From the IMG/VR virus record IMGVR_UViG_3300037246_003066, positions 1 to 35,812 of that record: DNA of 35,812 bases; one strand, written 5' to 3'. This document shows, piece by piece, positions 603 through 35,247 of this stretch. A program made the position numbers and the translations under genes. Below the pieces are notes generated by a model that worked only from the letters and a program-made list of their open reading frames with translations, was not told the origin of the DNA and ran no database searches. Source of the DNA: a virus. Numbering within the stretch: position 1 is the first letter of the stretch; each line of letters begins with the position of its first letter.

Positions 603-1454
603 ATGAAAAATGAAAAGATAATACGGGTGTTCCCGCGACGGACGAAGGCGACGCCGGATGATGAGATGGCGTTTGTGGGGGATCCACTATTTCCGGATTT
701 TCTGCCGGCGGCCGATGAGGTGCATGTGAGTTGTACGTTTACCTGGGATAAGGGGGAAGCGGAAAGATTGGTGCGGGCGTGGGAGGTGTATTTTCCGGGC
801 AAGGTGATACTTGGCGGGCCGGCGTACGATGACAGCGGCGGGGAGTTTGTGGGTGGCAGGTATTTGAAAAAGGGATATGTGATGACTACGCGCGGGTGCC
901 CGAACCTGTGTCCGTGGTGTTTTGTTCCACAGCGGGAAGGGGAGCTGAGAACTCTGGAGATTGTGGAAGGTAATAATGTGCTGGATAATAATCTGCTGGC
1001 GGCGCCGAAGGAACATATCACAGCAGTGTTTGAGATGCTGCGGAAACAAAGGAGGGGGGCATCGTTTACGGGTGGGCTGGATGCGAGGTTACTGAATGAT
1101 TGGCATATCGAATTGCTTAATAGTATTCGGGTGAAGCAAATATTTTTGGCCTATGACCATCGGGGGCAGTGGCCCTGTGTGGTCAGGGCCGCGGAGATGC
1201 TGCGAGAGGTGGGGTATAACCGGGAGAAACTGCGGTGCTATGTGCTGGTGGGTTATCAGGATGATACGATTGGCCAGGCGCTTGAGCGGTTAGAGGCGGT
1301 TTGGGAAATTGGGTTGATGCCGTTTGCTATGCTGTTCGAGCCGGGCTGCCGGCGGGATGCAATGGTGCGGGATCCGGAGTGGAGAAAATTGGTGAGGCAA
1401 TGGTCGCGGCCGGCGATTATTAAGGCGATGCACAGGGAAAAAGTTGGATGTTAG
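603..1454 (+). CDS. Radical SAM enzyme with B12-binding-like N-terminus, phage type
   Basis: A 283-residue protein starting at ATG 603, two bases after the previous stop; a longer open frame to 498 overlaps the upstream gene and is unlikely. Residues about 1-80 look like a Rossmann-like B12-binding-type domain (VILGGPAYDD). The radical SAM cysteine triad follows as CPNLCPWC (C99, C103, C106), which binds the 4Fe-4S cluster that cleaves S-adenosylmethionine. The rest is a plausible partial TIM barrel, with GGLDARLL and YVLVGYQDD strands. Free-standing enzymes of this type recur in phage genomes with unknown substrate. The position beside two DNA methyltransferases and a deoxyribosyltransferase-like gene suggests nucleotide or DNA modification; that part is inference. 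The C-terminal codons overlap the adenine methyltransferase start by 7 nt. Confidence 0.85.
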   Translation: MKNEKIIRVFPRRTKATPDDEMAFVGDPLFPDFLPAADEVHVSCTFTWDKGEAERLVRAWEVYFPGKVILGGPAYDDSGGEFVGGRYLKKGYVMTTRGCPNLCPWCFVPQREGELRTLEIVEGNNVLDNNLLAAPKEHITAVFEMLRKQRRGASFTGGLDARLLNDWHIELLNSIRVKQIFLAYDHRGQWPCVVRAAEMLREVGYNREKLRCYVLVGYQDDTIGQALERLEAVWEIGLMPFAMLFEPGCRRDAMVRDPEWRKLVRQWSRPAIIKAMHREKVGC

Positions 1455-2386
1455 ATTTGAATGAGAAACAGGAAATGAAGATTGGGTCGCTGGTGGCGTG
1501 GTTTGGGGGGAAGCGGACACTGGCGCCGAAGATTGTTTCGGAGCTGGGACCGCACACGATGTATGTAGAGCCGTTTTGTGGATCGGTGGCGGTGCTGCTG
1601 GCTAAGAAACCATCTCGGCATGAGATTGCCAATGATCTGCATGGGGATCTGATTAACCTGGCCAGGGTGATTGCATCGGATCGATGGGAGGAACTCTACA
1701 ATAGGCTGTATCGGACTTTGTGTTCGGAAGATATATTTAAGGAATGTAAGGTGGAATTCCTGGGCAGGGATATCGAGCCGCCGAAAACGATTAAAGATGT
1801 GGCAGATGAACATATCGAAAGGGCGTATATATACTTTGTCGTATCTTGGATTGGCAGGAACGGAACGTCTGGAACGAAGCGACAAAATTATCAACCTAGC
1901 AAGCGATGGACATCTGGTGGGGGATCAGGGGGAGTTAGGTTTGCCAGCGCGGTTGATTCGATAAGAGCTTGGCATGAAAGATTGCGTCGCGTGAATATTA
2001 TGAATATGGATGGATTCGAGTTGATCGAGAAGGTGGAAGATAGTCCCATGCTGGCGATGTATGTGGATCCACCGTATATGATGGGTGGGGCGCGGACTGG
2101 TGGAAGTGGAAGCGGGAAATATGAACATGAATTTGCCGAGGATGATCATCGGCGGCTGGCGGAGTTGCTGGGGCGGTTCGAAAAAGCGAGGGTGATCGTT
2201 AGCTATTATGATGATGAGCGGGTGGATGGGCTTTATCCTTCAAGCCGGTGGACTAAAAGGAAGGTATATAGGATGAAGGGAATAGCGAACGGGGGAGCAA
2301 GGGGATACAAAAAGACTGAAGCGCCGGAGGTTTTGTTGATTAATGGGGAATCGCTGGCTCCAAAAGAAAAGGGGTTGTTTGGATGA
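1448..2386 (+). CDS. dam: DNA adenine N6-methyltransferase, D12 class (Dam-like)
   Basis: A 312-residue protein. It shows the D12-class order of motifs: FGGKR (residues 19-23), the SAM-binding VEPFCGSVAVL (40-50), NDL (62-64) and the catalytic DPPY (207-210). It should transfer a methyl group from SAM to adenine N6 in a short DNA target; the target cannot be read from sequence. Phages use such enzymes to escape host restriction or to mark DNA for packaging or replication. ATG 1448 overlaps the radical SAM stop, and an internal ATG at 1475 with GGA upstream is an alternative that loses only the first nine residues and keeps all motifs. Its TGA overlaps the ATG of the HNH gene (ATGA), so it is translationally coupled at both ends. 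Confidence 0.9.
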   Translation: MLDLNEKQEMKIGSLVAWFGGKRTLAPKIVSELGPHTMYVEPFCGSVAVLLAKKPSRHEIANDLHGDLINLARVIASDRWEELYNRLYRTLCSEDIFKECKVEFLGRDIEPPKTIKDVADEHIERAYIYFVVSWIGRNGTSGTKRQNYQPSKRWTSGGGSGGVRFASAVDSIRAWHERLRRVNIMNMDGFELIEKVEDSPMLAMYVDPPYMMGGARTGGSGSGKYEHEFAEDDHRRLAELLGRFEKARVIVSYYDDERVDGLYPSSRWTKRKVYRMKGIANGGARGYKKTEAPEVLLINGESLAPKEKGLFG

Positions 2387-3809: not shown

Positions 3810-4136
3810 ATGAATCAGAATAAGTCTGTTGTGCCGGAGAATGTGGCGGGGATTGTTACATTGAGTGAACCGGTGATGATGATGGATGGGAAGATGTATG
3901 ATTGTCTTTGGGCGAGGCATTGGCGGGAGATGCCGGTGGCGGAAGAACCGAAGGAGCAACCGAAGGATGGTGAATTTGCATACGCGACGTTGGTGACCGA
4001 TCAGTTCTGGGGATTGATGGGGATGTTTGGGAAAGATAAAATGGTGTTTATTCCCGGTTGTGTGGTGATTGGATGGGTTGGGTGCAAGTTTATGCCGGAT
4101 AAAGATAATATTTATATTGTGGGTTGTGGTGAGTAA
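3810..4136 (+). CDS. Hypothetical phage protein
   Basis: A 108-residue protein with no family I recognise. A GAAAGGAAAAAGCT ribosome site precedes ATG 3810. The first half is polar with a Pro/Glu/Lys-rich stretch (VAEEPKEQPKDGE). The second half is hydrophobic and Gly/Cys containing (MVFIPGCVVIGWVGCKFM), perhaps a small beta domain rather than a membrane span. It ends at TAA 4134-4136, directly at a run of ten A. The next gene, the small terminase subunit, is open in the same frame, so only this stop separates them. Confidence 0.6.
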   Translation: MNQNKSVVPENVAGIVTLSEPVMMMDGKMYDCLWARHWREMPVAEEPKEQPKDGEFAYATLVTDQFWGLMGMFGKDKMVFIPGCVVIGWVGCKFMPDKDNIYIVGCGE

Positions 4137-4841
4137 AAAAAAAAGAAAAAGAAGATAACACCGAAGGCGAAGAAGGTCGCAACGGCGACTGCGAAGAAGA
4201 CGGCCAGGACGGCGGCAGCGGGGAAACGAAAAAAACCCGTTGCCGTCGGAGGCCCTACATCGCTGATTGTGGATACGGCTACGCTGGCGAGGTACTTTTG
4301 TACTGCTCAGCGGACGGTGAGGCATTGGGCCTTAGTTGAAGGGATGCCGAAACTTGGGCAGAATAAATATGATCTGGTGGTTGTGCGACAGTGGGAAGTT
4401 GATCGGCTGAAGAAAGAGATAGCGGCGCAGCAGGTCGATGACAGGCGATTGAAGAAATATTCGGCGGATGAGAGAAAGCATAGGGCAGAGCTGGTGCGGA
4501 TGCGGGCGGAGAGGATGAAGGGATTGCTGGTTGATCGGAAGGAAGTGGAACGAAAATCGATTGCGAAGATTGGGGCGGTTAAGAGCGGGATGGAGATGCT
4601 GGGCAGGCGGATCGCAGGGCGGATCGATGTTCCGGGGGCCGAGAAGATCGTCGATGAGGAAGTTGAGCTGTGCTGTAGGCGGTTTGGTGGCGAGGGTGGC
4701 AAGGGCCACAGCCTGACCGGCAAGGGCCGGTGCCAACTAAAAGGCAATGGTACGAAAATAGAAGATGGATCCCCGATCGTAGTCGGGGATGACAGAGGTG
4801 GCAAGGGCCACTGCCTAATTGAAGAGAAGATGGATCCCTGA
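4129..4841 (+). CDS. terS: Terminase small subunit, Nu1-like, with A-tract frameshift at its start
   Basis: The recognisable core is a winged helix-turn-helix at about 4257-4420 (VDTATLARYFCTAQRTVRHW then GMPKL and YDLVVVRQW), the DNA-recognition domain of Nu1-type small terminase subunits. These bind the packaging site and hand DNA to the large subunit. A long helical region follows, rich in Arg/Lys/Glu. The frame is open from the stop of the previous gene, and its start would encode a Lys-rich leader (KKKKKKITPKAKK), but no normal start lies in frame before GTG 4269. A GTG at 4129 begins MSKKK in the next frame and would enter this frame by a -1 slip in the A10 run at 4135-4144. Either start at GTG 4269 or slippage is possible. 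The last 48 or so residues are repeat-derived. Confidence 0.65.
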
Positions 4842-4873: not shown

Positions 4874-5896
4874 ATGACATGGTTGATGGTGCCGACAGAT
4901 TGCGGACGCTCGACTTGTTCTCAGGAATCGGGGGGATCTCGCTTGCCCTGGGCCCGTGGTGCCGGACCGTTTGCTATTGTGAGATCGACCCATACGCCGT
5001 CGGGGTTCTCGCGAAAGAGATGGCTAGAGGTAATCTCGACGTTGCGCCGGTCTGGAGTAATATTAGAACTTTCGGACCATCTGAACTTGCACAAGTTGAG
5101 TGGTATGCCGGTGGAGAAATTCAAGCGGTTACGGGCGGTTTTCCGTGCCAGGATATCAGCTCTGCAGGAAAGAGAGCCGGGATCAAAGGGAAACAGTCAG
5201 AACTCTTCTTTCAACAGATGCGAATTATTCGCATGGCGAGACCGCGAATTGTGTTTCTGGAGAATGTGCGGGGCATCACGAAAGGAGCACTTGCGGTTGT
5301 GCTCGGGGAACTGGCCGATTGCGGGTATGATGCAAAATGGAGAATGTTGTCGGCTCAGGAGATGGGAGCTCCGCATAAGAGAGATCGGTGGTGGTGCGTT
5401 GCCTACCCCTTCGGCAGCAGCGGCGACGCAGGGCTCGAACAAACCGGATGGCAAGTGGGGACAAACGCTGGTGGGGGCGGCGCGGGGGCAGATGTGGCCT
5501 ACCGCGACGGTGATGGATGCGGCGGGGTTTTGCGGCAAGCCGGACAAGGGCAGAGTGGGCCCGAACTCGGGACGGACATTGACGGGAAAGGTATTGGAGA
5601 TGGAGGGGCGGGGACCGCATGCGAAAATGTTGCCGACGCCGAGGGCATCGGAAGGGACCAGAACGGCTCAGTACAAACAAGGGGGCAAGCCACTGGGGTT
5701 GGCGGTACAGACATGGCCGACGGTAACGGCAAGGGATTCACGCAGCGGCAAAGGGAAAAGACAGGCTCAGAGAGGGCGGAAAAATGGGATGAGCCTGGGG
5801 GAATCGCAAGGTGGGCTGTTGAACCCGATGTGGGTCGAGTGGCTGATGGGGTACCCTTTAGGGTGGACAGACTTAGAAATCTTGGGAATGCGGTAG
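4874..5896 (+). CDS. Overlapping open frame inside dcm, conserved-looking WPTP/LNPxWVEWLMG family
   Basis: A 340-codon frame lies one base away from the methyltransferase frame and covers almost all of it. Its C-terminal half carries the signatures of a separate protein family often annotated beside or fused to phage cytosine methyltransferases: NWPIAGMMQNGE, repeated LPTP/WPT blocks (ALPTPSA, MWPTATVMD, MLPTPRASEG, WPTVTARD) and the terminal LLNPMWVEWLMGYPLGWTDL. Its ATG has the best-placed ribosome site (GGAG 7 nt upstream). I recall both sets of signatures as recurrent, so this DNA may encode two proteins. The alternative is that one reading is a frame shadow of the methyltransferase that databases have propagated. 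Function unknown. Confidence 0.4.
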   Translation: MTWLMVPTDCGRSTCSQESGGSRLPWARGAGPFAIVRSTHTPSGFSRKRWLEVISTLRRSGVILELSDHLNLHKLSGMPVEKFKRLRAVFRARISALQEREPGSKGNSQNSSFNRCELFAWRDRELCFWRMCGASRKEHLRLCSGNWPIAGMMQNGECCRLRRWELRIREIGGGALPTPSAAAATQGSNKPDGKWGQTLVGAARGQMWPTATVMDAAGFCGKPDKGRVGPNSGRTLTGKVLEMEGRGPHAKMLPTPRASEGTRTAQYKQGGKPLGLAVQTWPTVTARDSRSGKGKRQAQRGRKNGMSLGESQGGLLNPMWVEWLMGYPLGWTDLEILGMR

Positions 5897-18995: not shown

Positions 18996-19158
18996 TGCCA
19001 AGGGGCAGAGCCAACTAAAAGGCAAGGGATGGCAAGGGCCACTGCCTAACAAGAGAAGATGGATTCCCGATCGAGTCGGGGATGACAAACGAAGATGGAT
19101 CCCCGATCGAGTCGGGGATGACAAACGAAGATGGATCCCCGCTTTCGCGAGGATGACA
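18996..19158 (+). repeat. Repeat cluster with three tandem palindromes
   Basis: TGCCAAGGGGCAGAGCC and GGCAAGGGCCACTGCC units, then three palindromes at 19058-19087, 19094-19123 and 19130-19158 spaced exactly 36 nt apart (linker AACGAA). The third has different arms (CGCTTTCGCG) from the first two (CGATCGAGTCGG). Confidence 0.95.
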
Positions 19159-19175
19159 GATAAGGAGATTGAACG

Positions 19176-20078
19176 ATGCTTAATTATGATATTTATATGG
19201 TCGATCTGGACGGGACACCGATTGATGGGGTATCGAGCCAGACGATTAATAGTGGGACTGAGGTTGTTCGGAATATTGTCGATGGGCAGGTTGCTCCTGT
19301 GATGGGGTATGTGAATACTATCGTGCCGGTGATACCGTTCGAGACTAAAAAGATCGGGGCGATGCTGACTGCGTTCGGGGCGAATCCGCTGGCGGGGTTT
19401 CCGATTAAGGCGGCCGATACGGCTACGCTGTATTGCAGGTTGATGGAAGAGCTTGGGAGCCGGTCGGCAGATGGGGCGCTTAAAGTTTTGGTTAACATGG
19501 GGATAGTGATACCGGTATCGCTTAACGCCGGGGTCGATGCGACAGGCTCGATGCAGGTTGAAATACACACGATTACAGATGGGACTAATGCGCCGATCGT
19601 TACTACGCCAACTCAGTCGCTGGCCGGGACGCCGGATATGGATGAAGAGTTTACGGTGGGGCCGGCGAAACTTAATAATGTGGCGGTATCGGGGATTCAA
19701 AGTGTGTCGGTTGCGTTCGGTATTACATTGGCCAAGACTAAAGATGGTGGGGACGGGGCTGGGGTGGTTTATCCATCTTCGGCGTATATTCAGGGGGTTC
19801 AGCCGGTGATAACGCTGGTGACCAGGGATGTGGATTTGTTTGATACGTATAAGGAAGGGGTGGCGATTGCCAGTAGTACGCTGGTGCAACTTGCCAAGAG
19901 GGCGAAGGGCGGGTCGATTGCCGGTGGGAGTGTGCATCCGCAGTTTACGGTTGCCGAAGGGATGATTGTAGCTACGTCCATTGACGGGTCGCCGCAACAG
20001 GTGTCGATCGATATTTATCCTAGTGATGATTTGTCGAATCCGCTGATGGCTTATGTGCTGGCGACGTTGGCGACTTAA
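19176..20078 (+). CDS. Major tail (tube) protein
   Basis: A 300-residue protein with AAGGAGATTGAACG before ATG 19176. It is beta-rich with Ala/Gly/Val/Thr composition and no Cys beyond one. N-terminal strands MLNYDIYMVDLDGTPIDG and TEVVRNIVDGQVAPVMGYVN are followed by a long central segment and a C-terminal Ile/Val-rich half with IQSVSVAFGITLAK. Size, position before the chaperone-type genes and tape measure, and absence of enzymatic motifs point to the protein that stacks as the tail tube. Some N-terminal features also resemble domain-swapped tail proteins of myovirus type, but no sheath gene is present, so a siphovirus tube is preferred. Confidence 0.65.
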   Translation: MLNYDIYMVDLDGTPIDGVSSQTINSGTEVVRNIVDGQVAPVMGYVNTIVPVIPFETKKIGAMLTAFGANPLAGFPIKAADTATLYCRLMEELGSRSADGALKVLVNMGIVIPVSLNAGVDATGSMQVEIHTITDGTNAPIVTTPTQSLAGTPDMDEEFTVGPAKLNNVAVSGIQSVSVAFGITLAKTKDGGDGAGVVYPSSAYIQGVQPVITLVTRDVDLFDTYKEGVAIASSTLVQLAKRAKGGSIAGGSVHPQFTVAEGMIVATSIDGSPQQVSIDIYPSDDLSNPLMAYVLATLAT

Positions 20079-20141
20079 CTGGTGGGACGGTGAGTCGGTG
20101 GGACAGTAAATCAGTGGAATGACAATAATGGAGATTGAATG

Positions 20142-20384
20142 ATGGGTGATAAAAAGAATGAAGTACCTACGTTTACGATGGATCTGAGGGTGGATGACCG
20201 AACGGCGGTTGGGACGATCAAGAACCGGATGAGGTTGCTGACGTTGCCGGGTGATCGGGTGGAATATGATAAACTCGAAGCGGCGAAAAAAGAGTTTGAG
20301 GAATGGGTGGCTGAGAAAGAGAAGAAAGATGGATCCCCGATCGAGTCGGGGATGACAGAGGTGGCAAGGGCCACAGCCAGATAG
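20142..20384 (+). CDS. Small protein in tail-chaperone position, repeat-derived C-terminus
   Basis: About 80 residues from ATG 20142 (ATG 20139 also possible; GGAG at 20130-20133). Residues 1-60 are a compact soluble domain (VPTFTMDLRVDDRTAVGTIK, a second helix KLEAAKKEFEEWVAEKEKK). From about residue 61 the sequence DGSPIESGMTEVARATAR is translated from a palindrome and a GGCAAGGGCC unit, so the original stop has been replaced. It lies between tail tube and tape measure genes, where tail assembly chaperones usually are. No family match is claimed. Confidence 0.55.
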   Translation: MGDKKNEVPTFTMDLRVDDRTAVGTIKNRMRLLTLPGDRVEYDKLEAAKKEFEEWVAEKEKKDGSPIESGMTEVARATAR

Positions 20385-20524
20385 AAGAGAAGATGGATCC
20401 CCGATCGAGCCGGGGATGAGTGGCAAGGGCCACAGCCAGATAGAAGAGAAGATGGATCCCCGATCGAGCCGGGGATGAGTGGCAAGGGCCACAGCCTGAT
20501 AGAAGAGAAGATGGATCGGACAGA
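20328..20524 (+). repeat. Tandem array of a roughly 60-bp composite repeat
   Basis: Three palindromes (20328-20357, 20392-20420, 20451-20479) alternate with GGCAAGGGCCACAGCC units and a GATAGAAGAGAA linker. The period is 59-64 nt, and a broken fourth palindrome begins at 20510. The alternation shows that palindrome and GGCAAGGGCC unit can be copied together as one unit. Confidence 0.95.
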
Positions 20525-20552: not shown

Positions 20553-21281
20553 ATGAGTGGATTTTTGTATTTTTTTATTGGCGATGAGTTCAGGAATGCA
20601 CCTACCGATGAGCAGCTTAAAGAAATGAAGCTGGAGCATCTTGTGGGGGCTACGTTTTCGCAAGCGGCGTGGGGTGGTAATGAAACGATGGAAGGGGCGG
20701 GGGTGATATGTGCGATTGCGCAAAGCGGGCTAAGCGAAGGTGGGACTGAGCCGAAGGTGGGGTATTATCCGGATACGCAGCAGTGGGTCGCCGGCGGTGA
20801 GAAGTGGTGGATTGGGTGGGAGAAGGATAGCCGGCCTGGGCCGGTGGACCTGGTGCGTGGTGAGCAGATGCCCGGGTATGAAGTGAAGTTGGGAGATGGT
20901 GGTCTGTGGCTGGTGCCTTGTGAGAGGTTTCTGCCGAGAACATTAAAGCTGGATGGTGTGGGTGAAGTCCAGCGGGTGCCACTGGCTAAATTTGCGGCTA
21001 TGGGAGAAAAGACGGCTGTGGCGTGGGATGAATATCGTGCGGTAGTAAAGGCCAGAGATAAAAACAAAGTAGATGATTTGTTCAGTATCAGGTCGTGGAT
21101 CGAGATGGGGAATCACTTTTTGGGGGTTAATTATTGGGTCGGCAGGATAGAGGCCAATGAACTGAACTTGTGGAATGATCAGACGCTGGTTACTACGGTA
21201 GAGGCGATTTTGGATATACCGGGGCTTGTGAAGATGGAGGGGGATGGGGATAAAAAAAAAGAGTCTCCAGGCGGTGGCTGA
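20553..21281 (+). CDS. Putative tail assembly protein, likely extended by -1 frameshifting
   Basis: A 242-residue protein I cannot assign to a named family. It has several W residues (WWIGWEKDSRPGPVDLV), a R-F-L-P-R-T-L-K strand, and a C-terminal domain with HFLGVNYWVGRIEANELNLW and VEAILDIPGLVKMEG. It ends shortly after a run of nine A at 21252-21260. A -1 slip there would replace the last seven codons with a 45-codon extension to 21397. Just before tape measure genes, phages often make chaperone pairs by this kind of shift (lambda G and GT), so a chaperone role is inferred. GGAG at 20539-20542 precedes ATG 20553. Confidence 0.6.
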   Translation: MSGFLYFFIGDEFRNAPTDEQLKEMKLEHLVGATFSQAAWGGNETMEGAGVICAIAQSGLSEGGTEPKVGYYPDTQQWVAGGEKWWIGWEKDSRPGPVDLVRGEQMPGYEVKLGDGGLWLVPCERFLPRTLKLDGVGEVQRVPLAKFAAMGEKTAVAWDEYRAVVKARDKNKVDDLFSIRSWIEMGNHFLGVNYWVGRIEANELNLWNDQTLVTTVEAILDIPGLVKMEGDGDKKKESPGGG

Positions 21282-21397
21282 CCTGGCTGATGTGGAGGAA
21301 GGGGGAATTCGAGGATTATGAACCGACCCGCGCGGATATCGAACTTTACGAAAGGGAACTGGTAGTCAGCTATGATTACACAAGTTACTATAACTGA
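21252..21397 (+). other. A9 slippery tract and -1 frame extension
   Basis: In frame the codons are AAA AAA AAA GAG TCT, ending at TGA 21279-21281. One base back the frame continues from AGA 21260 through RRWLTWLMWRKGEFEDYEPT and on to YDYTSYYN, stopping at TGA 21395-21397 inside the next gene. An independent start at ATG 21290 has no good ribosome site, which favours slippage. A homopolymer error is the alternative. Confidence 0.5.
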
Positions 21398-21878
21398 GAT
21401 CGGGATGCCGGAGGCAATGTTCAAAGGGAAGGATGTATTCGGAAAAAAAATAGTTAAGCCGGTATTGAAACAACTGATAAAGATTTGGCATGAAAAATAT
21501 ATGCCGAGACATTTCAGGAGCGGGGCGCCCACTAAATATAAATATCGCCGGCGAAAACCGGAGAGTATGAGACGAAAACAGATACTCGCCCGGACACTTG
21601 GCAGATCGAATTTGCCGTTGGTCTTTACTGGCAGATTGCGGCGAGAGGTTAGCCAGACAATAAAGGTGGTTGGTACGAAAGCGGGTGCCAGGGGGACGCT
21701 AAAAGGGCCGCGGTATTTGTATAGGTATAGTAAGGGGGGCGCTCGGCCGCATCTGGCCGGTGAGATTACGACGGTAAGCGCCGATGAGATGGCCGAGCAG
21801 CTTAAATGGATAGAGCAGGAAACACTTAAACGGATTAACTGGGATAAGACAAAAAAGGTTGTGAAGATAAGGAAATGA
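21372..21878 (+). CDS. Tail or head-tail morphogenesis protein (virion morphogenesis-like)
   Basis: A 168-residue very basic protein. Its first half has KPVLKQLIKIWHEKYMPRHF, then KYKYRRRKPESMRRK, the H-F ... Y-x-Y-x-x-R pattern seen in phage virion-morphogenesis and HK97 gp10-like tail-completion proteins, followed by LPLVFTGRLRREV, where those families have L-V-x-T-G-x-L. It ends in a Lys-rich tail. Such proteins join or complete the tail. The start at 21372 overlaps the frameshift extension, and its stop lies 1 nt before the tape measure ATG. Confidence 0.6.
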   Translation: MITQVTITEIGMPEAMFKGKDVFGKKIVKPVLKQLIKIWHEKYMPRHFRSGAPTKYKYRRRKPESMRRKQILARTLGRSNLPLVFTGRLRREVSQTIKVVGTKAGARGTLKGPRYLYRYSKGGARPHLAGEITTVSADEMAEQLKWIEQETLKRINWDKTKKVVKIRK

Positions 21879-21879
21879 G

Positions 21880-23652
21880 ATGGGGTCGGCAAAGATAGAA
21901 TATGTTGCTGATGTGGCTAAAGTTGTTCAGGCGATGGACCGGATCATCGAGAAGCAGGTGAAGGTTCGACGCGGGGCTGAAGGTGTGGCAACGTCGGGAA
22001 GGAAGGCGGGGGATGAGATGGCCAAGGGGACGAAGAAGGGGACTGAGGAATTGTCTTCGATGGAGAAGGTGGGGAAAAGGGTTACCGATGGGCTTAAAAC
22101 CTATCTGGGGGCTGCGATGGGGATCGCAGGGGTGGCGAAGGCGTGGTCGTTTGTTAATGCGGAGATAAGGAAGGTGGCTGAGGCGCAAAGTATGTTGGCT
22201 ATGACCGGGAAGGAATATAACCGGGTATCGTTGCAACTGGCTAACCAGATGGGGCAGGCAAGGACTAATGTGGGACAAAGGCTATCGGCGGATGTGCTGG
22301 AATCGATACAGAAGGCGGGTAGATTCGGGGCGGATTGGCAGAGGGGAAAGGCGGCGGGGATTGCGGCGCATGTGGCGTTTGGGATACCGGGACAATTGCT
22401 GGCTGGGGAGGCGTTGGATATTGCGAAAGTGGGGGCTGAATTTGCGGGGTATAAAGGTATCGGTGCCGAAGAGACCGGGGGAATGTTTAAGGTACTCAAA
22501 CAGGCGGGGGTGACTGGAAAGATGGGAGCTGCTCGGCGGATGAGGCAGTTTGCGATGGCTTATGAGGCGGCGCTGAGTGTGGACCCATCGGCTAATATAG
22601 GGGGGATTGTGCGATTTATCGGGGAATATGTTAAAGGGGGCGGGACGTTTGAGATGGGGCTGGGGCGGTTTGGTGAGGCGATAGTGGGGACTGGAAGTGA
22701 GCAGGAGGCGGCGCAACGGTCCAGGCAGATGGTGATGATAATGCGTGGGGAGAAGATGCAGGCGACGCTTGCGGAGCGGATGGGGTTGGTGGAACCGTTG
22801 CCAGAGATGGTAGGGACCGGTAAAAAGGCAAAGGCTGAGAGGAAAAAAGCTGAGAAAGAACGGGCTAAGGAGTTGGTAAGATTGTTTTCGGCGATTCCGA
22901 TGGATGTTCGGATGGAACAATTTGGCGAATTTGCTGCGGGGGCCACTGAGACGCAATTGAAAGAGGCTGGGGTTGCAGATCGGCGGCTTGGGTGGGTGAT
23001 GGGGTTGTATGGTAAGGGTGGGTTTGCGAATATTATGAAGGAAAAACAAAGATTGATGGGGGCGACCGGTCAGCAGTTGCTGGATGAATTGGCTGAGTTT
23101 GGTGGGACATTTCAGGCGGCGGAGATGTTGGATGAGACAAAGGCGGCTTTGCTTGAGGGGAGGATAGGACGGAAGATTACGCTTGGTGAAACGAAAATGG
23201 GTGTATATCGGGCGATGCACAAGAGGCATATTGCTGGTGAGGAGGTATTACCATATTTTCGGCATGCGCCCGTTGCACATTTTGAAGATTGGTTGTGGAG
23301 AGAAAAGGGTGAGGTGCAGATAGTAGCTTATAGAACGATGGAGAAAAGACTAGAGAGGATTAAGAAGGCTTCTATTGATACCGGCGGTTTTTGGGGGACT
23401 GAGTGGAGGGGTGCCGGTACAGAGGCGGGCAGATTGTATGGTGAGGCTGTAGGATATCTTCCTACGATTAGTCCGGCTAATCTTGATCCTTTGACGCCGC
23501 GGGAAGTGGGGAAGATGGAGGAATATTTGGTGGTGTTGGAGGCGATGGTGGATGAACTTAAGAAAAATACGGATGCGATGAAAAAGAATACTGATGGGAA
23601 AGAGGAGGGGATGAGGATGAATGTGATGGATCCGGATGCTAATGTGGAATGA
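21880..23652 (+). CDS. Tape measure protein
   Basis: A 590-residue protein rich in Ala, Gly, Met, Glu and Lys. The first 70 residues are helical and Lys-rich, including ADVAKVVQAMDRIIEKQVKV as is common at tape measure N-termini. A Gly/Ala-rich segment (LGAAMGIAGVAKAWSFVNAE) may be a membrane-active stretch. Long helices follow (SMLAMTGKEYNRVSLQLANQ; AKAERKKAEKERAKELVRLF), and the end is a coiled EAMVDELKKNTDAMKKNTD. It is the longest gene between tube and baseplate genes, at the expected place. If one residue spans 1.5 A the tail would be short, around 85-90 nm. GAAATGAG precedes ATG 21880. Confidence 0.8.
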   Translation: MGSAKIEYVADVAKVVQAMDRIIEKQVKVRRGAEGVATSGRKAGDEMAKGTKKGTEELSSMEKVGKRVTDGLKTYLGAAMGIAGVAKAWSFVNAEIRKVAEAQSMLAMTGKEYNRVSLQLANQMGQARTNVGQRLSADVLESIQKAGRFGADWQRGKAAGIAAHVAFGIPGQLLAGEALDIAKVGAEFAGYKGIGAEETGGMFKVLKQAGVTGKMGAARRMRQFAMAYEAALSVDPSANIGGIVRFIGEYVKGGGTFEMGLGRFGEAIVGTGSEQEAAQRSRQMVMIMRGEKMQATLAERMGLVEPLPEMVGTGKKAKAERKKAEKERAKELVRLFSAIPMDVRMEQFGEFAAGATETQLKEAGVADRRLGWVMGLYGKGGFANIMKEKQRLMGATGQQLLDELAEFGGTFQAAEMLDETKAALLEGRIGRKITLGETKMGVYRAMHKRHIAGEEVLPYFRHAPVAHFEDWLWREKGEVQIVAYRTMEKRLERIKKASIDTGGFWGTEWRGAGTEAGRLYGEAVGYLPTISPANLDPLTPREVGKMEEYLVVLEAMVDELKKNTDAMKKNTDGKEEGMRMNVMDPDANVE

Positions 23653-24059: not shown

Positions 24060-24210
24060 GGCAAGGGGTGCCAAGGGGCACAGGTGGCAGGCACCAGGCA
24101 ATAGGGAAGAGAAGAAAGAAGAAGATGGATCCCCGATCGAGCCGGGGATGACAAACGAAGATGGATCCCCGATCAGGTCGGGGATGACAATTAAACAAGA
24201 TGGATGACAG
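24060..24210 (+). repeat. Repeat cluster with two palindromes
   Basis: GGCAAGGGGTGCCAAGGGGC module, a CAGGTGGCAGGCACCAGGCA stretch that itself has self-complementary parts, and palindromes at 24124-24153 and 24160-24189 spaced 36 nt apart. A collapsed copy (GATGGATGACAG) follows at 24200. Confidence 0.9.
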
Positions 24211-27471: not shown

Positions 27472-28066
27472 TATTAAATGTAATTATTTGGTTGGCCGTC
27501 GTTGTTTATTGAAAACAGCATTTACAAGCGAGGCTTTTGCTACGCCGCAATTTTGCCGTGATGTTTGTGGCACAAATGATCCGATCAGGCAAAAAGAAAT
27601 GCTAAAAACGCATGGTCTTGTTGTTGATAACTTGCCATATCCTACAACGTTGAAAAAAGCGCATACACACAAAAAAGAATGTGGAGCACAAAAACAAAAA
27701 GCCGAGCGGCAAAAGCTACTTGACCAATTACCAAAAGGCGTAGCTCTCACTGTAAATCTGAAACGACACTTAAAGCAAATTGCTGTTCACTACGTCAAAA
27801 CACGAGAATATTATGTTTCCGATGAACACGAAAAAGCCAGGTTAGCAAAATGCGATAAATGCCCGGATGGAAAAATGGTTGTTAAAGATGGTGTGATGCG
27901 ATGTGCACTCAGAACATGCGGTTGTTATTTGGACAACCCGAGTAATCGTCCGGTGTTGGAAGGCAAAGCAAAGTATTGGGCAACGCCTTGCGATAACGGG
28001 CATTGGGATGGGATAGATGAGGTGATGAGGGGTGGCGGGAAAGAGAAGATGGATCCCCGATCGTAG
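27440..28066 (+). CDS. Cys-rich protein with C-terminal zinc-binding-like module
   Basis: Up to 208 residues. The start is unsure: ATG 27440 overlaps the previous gene by 32 nt. N-terminal Cys (KCNYLVGRRC, then FCRDVCG) are followed by a basic, Lys/Gln-rich helix, and the end has CDKCPDG, MRCALRTCGCYL and PCDNGHWD. This C-terminal pattern (C-x2-C, then C-x4-C-x-C, then C-x-x-G-x-W) recurs in phage proteins near tail fibre genes, probably binding zinc. The last residues KEKMDPRS come from the repeat that follows. A+T content is higher than in the surrounding genes, which suggests this and the preceding gene arrived together. Confidence 0.6.
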   Translation: MIVVIVNLNHNIKCNYLVGRRCLLKTAFTSEAFATPQFCRDVCGTNDPIRQKEMLKTHGLVVDNLPYPTTLKKAHTHKKECGAQKQKAERQKLLDQLPKGVALTVNLKRHLKQIAVHYVKTREYYVSDEHEKARLAKCDKCPDGKMVVKDGVMRCALRTCGCYLDNPSNRPVLEGKAKYWATPCDNGHWDGIDEVMRGGGKEKMDPRS

Positions 28067-28187
28067 TCGGGGATGACAGACGAAGATGGATCCCCGGTCG
28101 TGGCCGAGGATGACAAACGAAGATGGATCCCCGATCGTAGTCGGGGATGACAAACGAAGATGGATCCCTGCCTGCGCAGGGATGACG
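28048..28187 (+). repeat. Four tandem palindromes
   Basis: Copies at 28048-28078, 28085-28115, 28122-28152 and 28159-28187, separated by GACGAA or AACGAA with a strict 37-nt period. Arms differ from copy to copy (CGATCG..., CGGTCG..., TGCCTGC...) and each keeps its own pairing. Confidence 0.95.
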
Positions 28188-28580: not shown

Positions 28581-28680
28581 GTGGCAAGGGCCACTGCCTA
28601 ATAGAAGAGAAGATGGATCCCCGCTTTCGCGAGGATGACAATAGAAGAAAGATGGATCCCCGATCGAGTCGGGGATGACA
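28581..28680 (+). repeat. GGCAAGGGCC unit and two palindromes before the spike gene
   Basis: GGCAAGGGCCACTGCC, linker TAATAGAAGAGAA, a palindrome with arms CGCTTTCGCG at 28612-28640 and another with arms CGATCGAGTCGG at 28651-28680. AAGGAG of the spike gene starts directly afterwards. Confidence 0.95.
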
Positions 28681-34050: not shown

Positions 34051-35247
34051 TTAATTAGTTATTTGCTTCGGTATTTCAAAGGGTTTGGCATTCGGGAGGC
34101 GTTTGGTTTTGTCGATGTTTACTATTTGAGGGATGAGGCCGCCGGCTTTTTTTATTATAACGGTATCGCCCTGGCGGAGTTCTTTGAATATGCCATTGAA
34201 ATTATGGAGATTGGCTCGCCTGACCATGGTATCGCCCATCTGGATTGGCTTTAGGATGGCTATGGGTGTTTGTTTGCCGGTTTTGCCTGTCTGGATGGTG
34301 ATGGTCTCGATGGTTGTTTCGGCTGGGGGGGATGGGAATTTGTAGGCGATGCACCATAGAGGTGATCTTGCGCTATTATCACCCATTAAATATTGATCGG
34401 TAATATCATTAAGTTTGATTACCAGACCATCGATTTGGTAAGGCAGGCTGCTACGAGTCTCTGTACGTTTTTGGCATATCTCGATGACACGGTCGAAATT
34501 GTCGGTAATTTTATAGCCAGAATCGATTGGAAGGCCGAGGGTTGCTAGCTTTTGGAGAGTTTGGTTTTGGTTGGCGGCGAAATCGGACGGCCAGGCCAGG
34601 CTGTGAGCGATGAAGCTGAGGCATCTCGAGGCGACGGTTTTGGGGTCGAACAATTTGAGAGTGCCGGCGGCAAGGTTGCGGGGGTTGGCGAAGGCTGATT
34701 TCTTATTGGCTTTGCGCTGTTGATTGATTCGACCGAACTGGGCATCAGTCAGGAATATCTCGCCGCGGACCTCCAGGAGCTCTGGTGGACTATCTGTGGT
34801 CAATCGTAGCGGGATCGATTTGATTGTTCGGACGTTGGTGGTTATATCGGAACCGGTATCGCCGTTGCCCCGGGTGAGTGCCTGGGTGAGCAGGCCATTT
34901 TCGTAACGTAGGGAGATAGCTACGCCGTCGATTTTGTTTTCGATTATATAAGATAATTTGCTGCCTCGGATTTCGAAGTTGCGGAGTAGCTTGAAGGAAT
35001 CGGTATTGGCGATGCCGAGCATTGGGATATCGTGGTGGACTTTGGTAAAACCCTTTAGAGTGGACCCCCCTACTCGTTGTGTGGGTGAATCGGGGGTGAT
35101 CGATTTGGGGTGGGCGGCCTCTAAGTTCTTGAGTTGCTTGAATAGGAGATCATATTGTTGGTCGGTGATCTCGGGTGCATCGAGTACGTAATATTGACGA
35201 TCGTGATAATTGATTTGGTCTCTGAGTTGTTCGATTGTTTGGTCCAT
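34051..35247 (-). CDS. ligA: NAD+-dependent DNA ligase, short form without zinc finger, HhH and BRCT
   Basis: A 398-residue protein. Domain Ia with the NMN-binding Y-H/D-x-x-Y-Y region (LRDQINYHDRQYYVLDAPEI) covers residues 1-60. The adenylation domain follows, with IENKIDGVAISLRY (active-site K105 in K-x-D-G), TRGNGDTGSDIT and EVRGEIF. The OB domain is at about 310-385 (TGKTGKQTPIAILKPIQMGD; VIIKKAGGLIPQIVNI). The protein ends just where bacterial LigA (about 650-700 residues) begins its zinc finger, and the stop is followed immediately by the helix-turn-helix gene, so this is a natural short form. It would seal nicks using NAD+. A G-rich + strand makes its protein rich in Thr, Ile, Pro, Gln and Lys. 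Ribosome site AAAGGG is upstream. Confidence 0.9.
   Translation of the reverse strand: MDQTIEQLRDQINYHDRQYYVLDAPEITDQQYDLLFKQLKNLEAAHPKSITPDSPTQRVGGSTLKGFTKVHHDIPMLGIANTDSFKLLRNFEIRGSKLSYIIENKIDGVAISLRYENGLLTQALTRGNGDTGSDITTNVRTIKSIPLRLTTDSPPELLEVRGEIFLTDAQFGRINQQRKANKKSAFANPRNLAAGTLKLFDPKTVASRCLSFIAHSLAWPSDFAANQNQTLQKLATLGLPIDSGYKITDNFDRVIEICQKRTETRSSLPYQIDGLVIKLNDITDQYLMGDNSARSPLWCIAYKFPSPPAETTIETITIQTGKTGKQTPIAILKPIQMGDTMVRRANLHNFNGIFKELRQGDTVIIKKAGGLIPQIVNIDKTKRLPNAKPFEIPKQITN

Follow-up and report, generated by a model that had tools for sequence, protein, structure and literature searches.

The gene ahead of the tape measure gene in this virus raises the question of whether it encodes one protein or two. 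The DNA analysed here, the whole of a virus record of 35,812 bases (the window), carries a gene for 242 residues with a run of nine As close to its 3' end. A preliminary description proposed that a -1 shift at this run adds an extension that overlaps the next gene, and that the gene is the equivalent, in this phage group, of the G/GT tail assembly chaperones. In lambda, a -1 shift produces gpGT alongside gpG, which outnumbers it 30:1. Binding to the tape measure protein is a property of the G part, and binding to the tube protein of the T part (PMC5009743). Features of the G/GT kind are an in-phase slippery site near the 3' end, a conserved out-of-frame C-terminal extension, and a position between the genes for the major tail protein and the tape measure.

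The slip gene and its neighborhood

The features of the region are listed below; the gene at 20553-21281 is hereafter called the slip gene.

19176-20078, plus strand: major tail (tube) protein, 300 aa, so named from its position (profile of nine relatives, E 2.7e-54; cluster c2; no PHROGs match)
20553-21281, plus strand: short form, a 242-aa candidate G-like tail assembly chaperone (ORF, homologs, AlphaFold2 model)
21252-21260, plus strand: A9 slippery run, in phase as AAA AAA AAA, with the heptamer A_AAA_AAA at 21254-21260
21260-21397, plus strand: T-like -1 frame extension, 45 residues plus stop; predicted long form of 281 aa
21372-21878, plus strand: 168-aa cluster c3 protein, putatively tail completion-like (no PHROGs or Pfam match)
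21880-23652, plus strand: tape measure protein, 590 aa (profile of 14 relatives, E 1e-13, a whole-sequence value that coiled coils may inflate)

The A9 is present and in frame, as first described, and occupies codons 234-236 of the 242-aa ORF; the distance from run to stop had been given as 20 nt, and the actual separation of the A9 from the stop codon is 18 nt. The window thus has an in-phase slippery site (A_AAA_AAA) near the 3' end of the gene. When the last A of the run (21260) is read again, the -1 frame gives RVSRRWLTW...YTSYYN, 45 residues that end at a TGA (21395-21397) and share 26 nt with the ORF at 21372-21878; both the extension and its overlap read as had been claimed. The +1 frame after the A9 is closed within 19 residues. 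Throughout the 35,812 nt this is the only run of exactly nine As, and there is one A10 (4135-4144). An A8 at 21443-21450, early in the next gene, is also in phase for A_AAA_AAA; according to a reading by hand, shifting to -1 at this A8 would lead to a stop after two residues.

Gene order was compared over 20 longer regions from relatives (L171-L190), with L189, which gave no gene order, retained in the denominator. In 14 of the 20, as in the window, the slip gene has a homolog of the c2 tube protein on its upstream side, and a gene of 431-1019 aa lies downstream, directly or after c3, in 18 of the 20 and in the window; none was seen downstream in L179. The order of tube, slip gene and tape measure, and with it the position expected of a G/GT-kind gene, is therefore kept in most regions read, which bears out the earlier placement of the slip gene ahead of the tape measure, with the qualification that in the window c3 intervenes. 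The profiles that identify the tube and tape measure proteins were built from proteins occupying the same place in relatives (9 and 14, respectively). One of the 14, the tape measure of L171, matches PF10145 (PhageMin_Tail) at 4.3e-18; this domain was detected in five of eight viral records tested, one of them above the curated cut-off, and also in seven of 14 control genomes, and is thus a general family.

The c3 gene stands between slip gene and tape measure in the window, L174 and L190, and upstream of the tube gene in several relatives, so that its position appears mobile. The interval from tube to slip gene holds an 81-aa ORF (20139-20384); a gene of 127-129 aa (c19) occupies this place in L171-L173, and the c19 profile does not match the ORF.

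A protein family in Planctomycetota and viral contigs

Because homologs were gathered with the zero-frame protein, their choice was independent of slip site and extension. In the searches made here homologs came from Planctomycetota genomes and environmental viral contigs, the assignment to Planctomycetota resting on the genome that holds L054, a Sedimentisphaerales bacterium. Among 392 genomes of that phylum the window protein matched 13 at E 0.01, and a profile (A2) of the window protein plus 11 members from this first search, run at E 0.001 against as many genomes, matched 12: 11 of the earlier 13 and one extra. The class of one matching genome gave 26 of 397, in part genomes already found in the phylum search, and nine genomes from the class of G043 yielded one profile match, already in the set. 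Scans of IMG/VR with alignments added 29 distinct viral contigs. The first scans of viral contigs, with the window protein, the terminase and a two-row alignment, had found one contig, which ends at residue 69 of the gene; nothing was found by scanning viral contigs with the protein of the next gene (21372-21878), by scanning genome contigs with the window protein, or by a scan with a three-member alignment (A4). Outside Planctomycetota there were no matches in 193 genomes from the phylum of an Omnitrophota genome, nor in 299 from that of a Roseibium genome, both weak negatives because neither set contained a positive control.

The counts below refer to the window plus 32 genome loci (the genome-plus-window set, n=33) and to the 29 viral contigs. 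Dropped beforehand were L135 and L136 (E 0.005-0.007, not recovered by the profile); two partial matches, L148 and L168 (E 6e-6 and 9.5e-4); L206, L213, L215 and L221, which are the same contigs as L197, L195, L191 and L193; and L001, L003, L004 and L123, which represent one contig ending within the slip gene. L124-L134 duplicate the genes L137-L147, which were counted once. The partial matches L148 (147 aa) and L168 (168 aa) are weak homologs of the C-terminal part and have no A-run; in L148 the -1 frame is open for 167 nt beyond the stop, and this protein may be another type of chaperone.

None of 31 aligned members (the window, the 29 viral contigs and one fragment) matched Pfam, PHROGs or NCBIfam at E 0.01, in agreement with the earlier suggestion of a new protein family, and none of six extensions (of the 53 available) matched Pfam or PHROGs at E 1. 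These comparisons provide no sequence link to named chaperone families, whether for the protein (Pfam, PHROGs, NCBIfam) or for the extensions (Pfam, PHROGs). The window protein, which on its own also had no PHROGs or Pfam match, found nothing in phage records by tblastn, nor did the window tape measure protein in phage records, nor the relative L200 in phage or plasmid records; in the same kind of records, relatives of the major head and portal proteins are distant ones only.

Conservation of the -1 extension

Recovery of the extension was assessed with held-out profiles, in which the tested member was left out (for five members, near kin too) and six frames were searched up to 1.5 kb on each side of the stop. 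The extension of the window was found in the -1 frame at the run with an iE of 6.1e-12, the next best match within 1.5 kb being 0.35. Across the 33 members the -1 frame scored below 1e-5 in 18, and L158 scored 8e-4; L137 (0.002) and L138 (0.018) did no better than the best off-target match (0.0018, in L143), and the extension went unrecovered in L139, L145 and L163. The eight members that lack a heptamer gave no extension match below 0.008. With a profile made from the genome-plus-window set, and thus built without the viral contigs, all 29 contigs had their top match in the -1 frame, located at the run or beyond it, with an iE of at most 3.2e-7 in 28 and of 0.065 in L192.

The extension is a short conserved domain with the motif R-W-L...W..G....Y.P[TS].A[DE]L..L; among 53 extensions the P is invariant, the G is present in 50 and the W in 48. 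Substitutions between the extensions of L137 and L138 fall mainly at third positions of the -1 frame (12 of 19, p 0.007); L151 and L169, which are further apart, lack this bias (31, 28, 33). Conservation of the extension, one of the checks proposed at the outset, thus holds in most relatives and goes beyond mere openness of the frame, as would be expected of a chaperone of the G/GT kind.

Homopolymers are prone to error, and phase variation at homopolymers has been described in surface genes (PMC3711429). The two frames might then once have been one gene, with the run as an indel: a pseudogene, an assembly error or a phase-variable tract. L161 resembles such a case, since its motif lies in the other shifted frame (iE 1.3e-12), with an A8 some 38 nt upstream of the zero-frame stop; it was counted as heptamer-bearing although its -1 extension lacks the motif, and an assembly error or a different shift may account for it. 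If indels explained the family, extensions in frame 0 should occur: the profile found none at the 3' end among 62 loci. Read by eye, the motif is instead in the -1 frame in 24 of the 25 genome-plus-window members with a site; the top match of the extension profile is in that frame in each of the 29 viral contigs, and in two members other slippery heptamers substitute for the A-run. We consider an indel origin very improbable.

The slip site: ribosome or polymerase

A slippery heptamer in phase and within 180 nt of the stop occurs in 25 of the 33 members, 23 times in runs of eight to ten As, once as GGGAAAA (L144) and once as GGGAAAC (L154); each of the 29 viral contigs has an in-phase run of seven to ten As. 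In these site-bearing members the -1 frame is open beyond the zero-frame stop. On the coding strand of the 33 homologous loci, runs of eight or more As number 23 in 5,049 bp of 3' tails vs two in the other 107.6 kb, and the run is thus more than chance. The A-run, whose conservation the preliminary description had suggested checking, is accordingly a property of most relatives also. The site here is a run of As, which we take to be unlike lambda's own.

Given two forms, the ribosome probably slips, on A_AAA_AAA. All 52 A-runs contain this heptamer in phase (permutation p 0.011), and the six runs shorter than nine are without exception at phases that permit it; in the part of these 52 genes that precedes the run, AAA accounts for just 161 of 388 lysine codons. 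In L144 and L154, moreover, GGGAAA replaces the run in exactly the ribosomal phase. Together the in-phase heptamers and these two replacements favor ribosomal slippage.

The same chaperone and the same two products would arise if RNA polymerase slipped on the A9, so that ordinary translation of transcripts with an extra A continued in the -1 frame (programmed transcriptional realignment). Against this, GGGAAAA and GGGAAAC have too few As for polymerase slippage, and the six short runs all keep the heptamer phase. What speaks for the polymerase is run length: 43 of the 52 runs consist of exactly nine As, with every one of the three codon phases represented, as expected if length itself matters, and at phases 1 and 2 nine As exceed what the heptamer requires. 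Nine As are used in this way in dnaX of Thermus thermophilus; reporter cassettes with 11, 9 and 7 As gave 63, 40 and 10% frameshifting, values that fit either level (PMC3711429). The near-constant A9 at every phase keeps polymerase slippage in play, as a reading that we regard as nested within the two-form one and as unlikely. Since the A9 is kept at every codon phase and classical ribosomal heptamers are few, the family offers a natural setting in which to tell slippage by the ribosome from slippage by the polymerase.

Two candidate stimulators were considered and rejected. Downstream RNA structure is not a general feature: folds of the 60 nt after the site have a mean z of -0.64 (window +0.86) and fall below -2 in seven of 54. 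Shine-Dalgarno-like (SD-like) motifs upstream appeared enriched in a first count (24 of 54 vs 15% in control windows), mostly on account of amino-acid content; with that content held constant 23 of 52 were observed vs 20.2 expected (14 vs 9.3 for motifs of at least 5 nt), leaving a weak signal.

Predicted fold

AlphaFold2 with 31 sequences gave a model of the short form with pLDDT 92.0 and pTM 0.86, in which residues 1-143 are predicted to be beta-rich and residues 145-235 helical. In BFVD the whole model had a sole match under E 1e-3, an entry from an uncultured Caudovirales phage (A0A6J5LCU1) with the annotation 'Tail assembly chaperone' (E 9.9e-4, probability 1.00; 17% identity over 144 columns; TM 0.47 by target and 0.28 by query; rmsd 6.0); it is a match to the whole model, but the protein has 131 residues and its annotation is putative. 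A tape-measure-chaperone frameshift protein at rank 12 (E 0.56) is meaningless by itself. In the PDB the whole model had nothing significant (best E 0.19; Z at most 3.0, no chaperone). The helical domain folded alone (pLDDT 84) found no chaperone in BFVD and none among PDB chains (Z at most 3.8), which limits the weight of the whole-model match.

The predicted beta-rich domain in the N-terminal half, and the absence of a link in sequence or solved structure to known chaperones, are what one would expect if the frameshift were real and the product a structural component of the tail or some other factor in tail assembly rather than a tape measure chaperone. Position and frameshift jointly are, however, the hallmark of G/GT, and the closest predicted viral structure carries a chaperone annotation; we regard a non-chaperone product as improbable.

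A probable two-form tail assembly chaperone

Site, conserved extension and position all support the G/GT equivalence first proposed, and from them we infer the chaperone function. We put at about 0.88 the probability that the slip gene encodes a tail assembly chaperone in two forms, one short and one frameshifted, whichever machine slips. On this reading the long form is presumably produced and both forms would act as chaperones; the slipping machine and the binding partners are likewise deduced. Two products would share one start, as in the lambda kind of chaperone. The bulk would stop in frame at 21281 to give the short form (242 aa), and a fraction would enter the -1 frame at the A-run, acquiring 45 residues to give the long form (281 aa). 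On the lambda model, coating of the tape measure protein may fall to the part common to both forms and recruitment of tail tube subunits to the extension, with the A-run setting the ratio of short to long.

The likeness to lambda gpG/gpGT consists in a slip site near the 3' end, a -1 shift, and short and extended forms with a common N-terminus (PMC5009743), the shift and the extended form being predicted for the present gene, together with the location of the gene between those for tail tube and tape measure. The present protein differs in having a domain of about 140 residues, predicted to be beta-rich, ahead of the helical part, and in matching no named chaperone family. A cluster of HK97-like chaperones in the GeneTack survey has a predicted frameshift, measured at 6 and 7% in two genes (PMC3711429); that cluster resembles an HK97 protein, whereas the present family has no Pfam, PHROGs or NCBIfam match. 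The table of the same survey includes two Planctomycetes genomes (PMC3711429). With the dnaX gene of Thermus, and with two-ORF dnaX genes, the likeness is that nine or ten As give, or here would give, two forms; the Thermus case differs in being transcriptional slippage and in concerning a DNA polymerase subunit (PMC3711429). Tail genes of planctomycetal prophages are mentioned in PMC13092639, with no frameshift in the passage concerned. The literature on planctomycetal prophage and phage tail genes, chaperone frameshifts and transcriptional slippage, within a coverage that takes in few subscription papers, yielded no description of G/GT-type recoding in this group.

The family is undescribed; its function and the recoding on which it draws are very likely of known kinds. 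A likely role is thereby given to a family missing from the libraries searched, and G/GT-type recoding would extend to a group of Planctomycetota phages in which annotation overlooks the predicted second product.

Members without the site

Relatives lacking both run and open -1 frame had been named as evidence that would count against the proposal. Site and extension are both absent in eight of the 33; the other 25 and all the viral contigs keep the run or heptamer and an open -1 frame, and the proposal is supported. Five of the eight (L147, L155, L162, L164, L165) group in a single clade (local support 0.85), whose members have a long ORF that begins at or just beyond the slip-gene stop; in the three read further (L185, L178, L180) this ORF belongs to the tape measure cluster c4. 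Grouping and ORF arrangement make the absence look like a derived loss. The remaining three (L150, L160, L167) are scattered. A clade free of the frameshift raises the question of how tails are built there without a long form.

A broader scenario, which we hold to be doubtful and somewhat less likely than polymerase slippage as such, is that a Planctomycetota phage lineage sets its chaperone ratio by RNA-polymerase slippage on a fixed A9, that some members have converted to ribosomal GGGAAA(A/C), and that one clade does without the second form. If true, the recoding mode could be traced as it changes inside one protein family.

Other features of the virus

Genes elsewhere in the window include the following.

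1448-2386, plus strand: DNA methyltransferase
4874-5896, plus strand: DNA methyltransferase
34051-35247, minus strand: NAD-dependent DNA ligase

Tandem copies of a palindromic unit of 36-59 bp (GAAGATGGATCCCCGATCGAGTCGGGGATGACAAAC and kin) occur at 19055-19141, 20320-20517, 24121-24190, 28045-28168 and 28600-28680. The units are mostly intergenic in this virus, and the relative L003 has many copies; among the matches listed, the core of the unit is found in bacterial genomes of many phyla. Host-like interspersed repeats among the structural genes of a virus are an odd arrangement.
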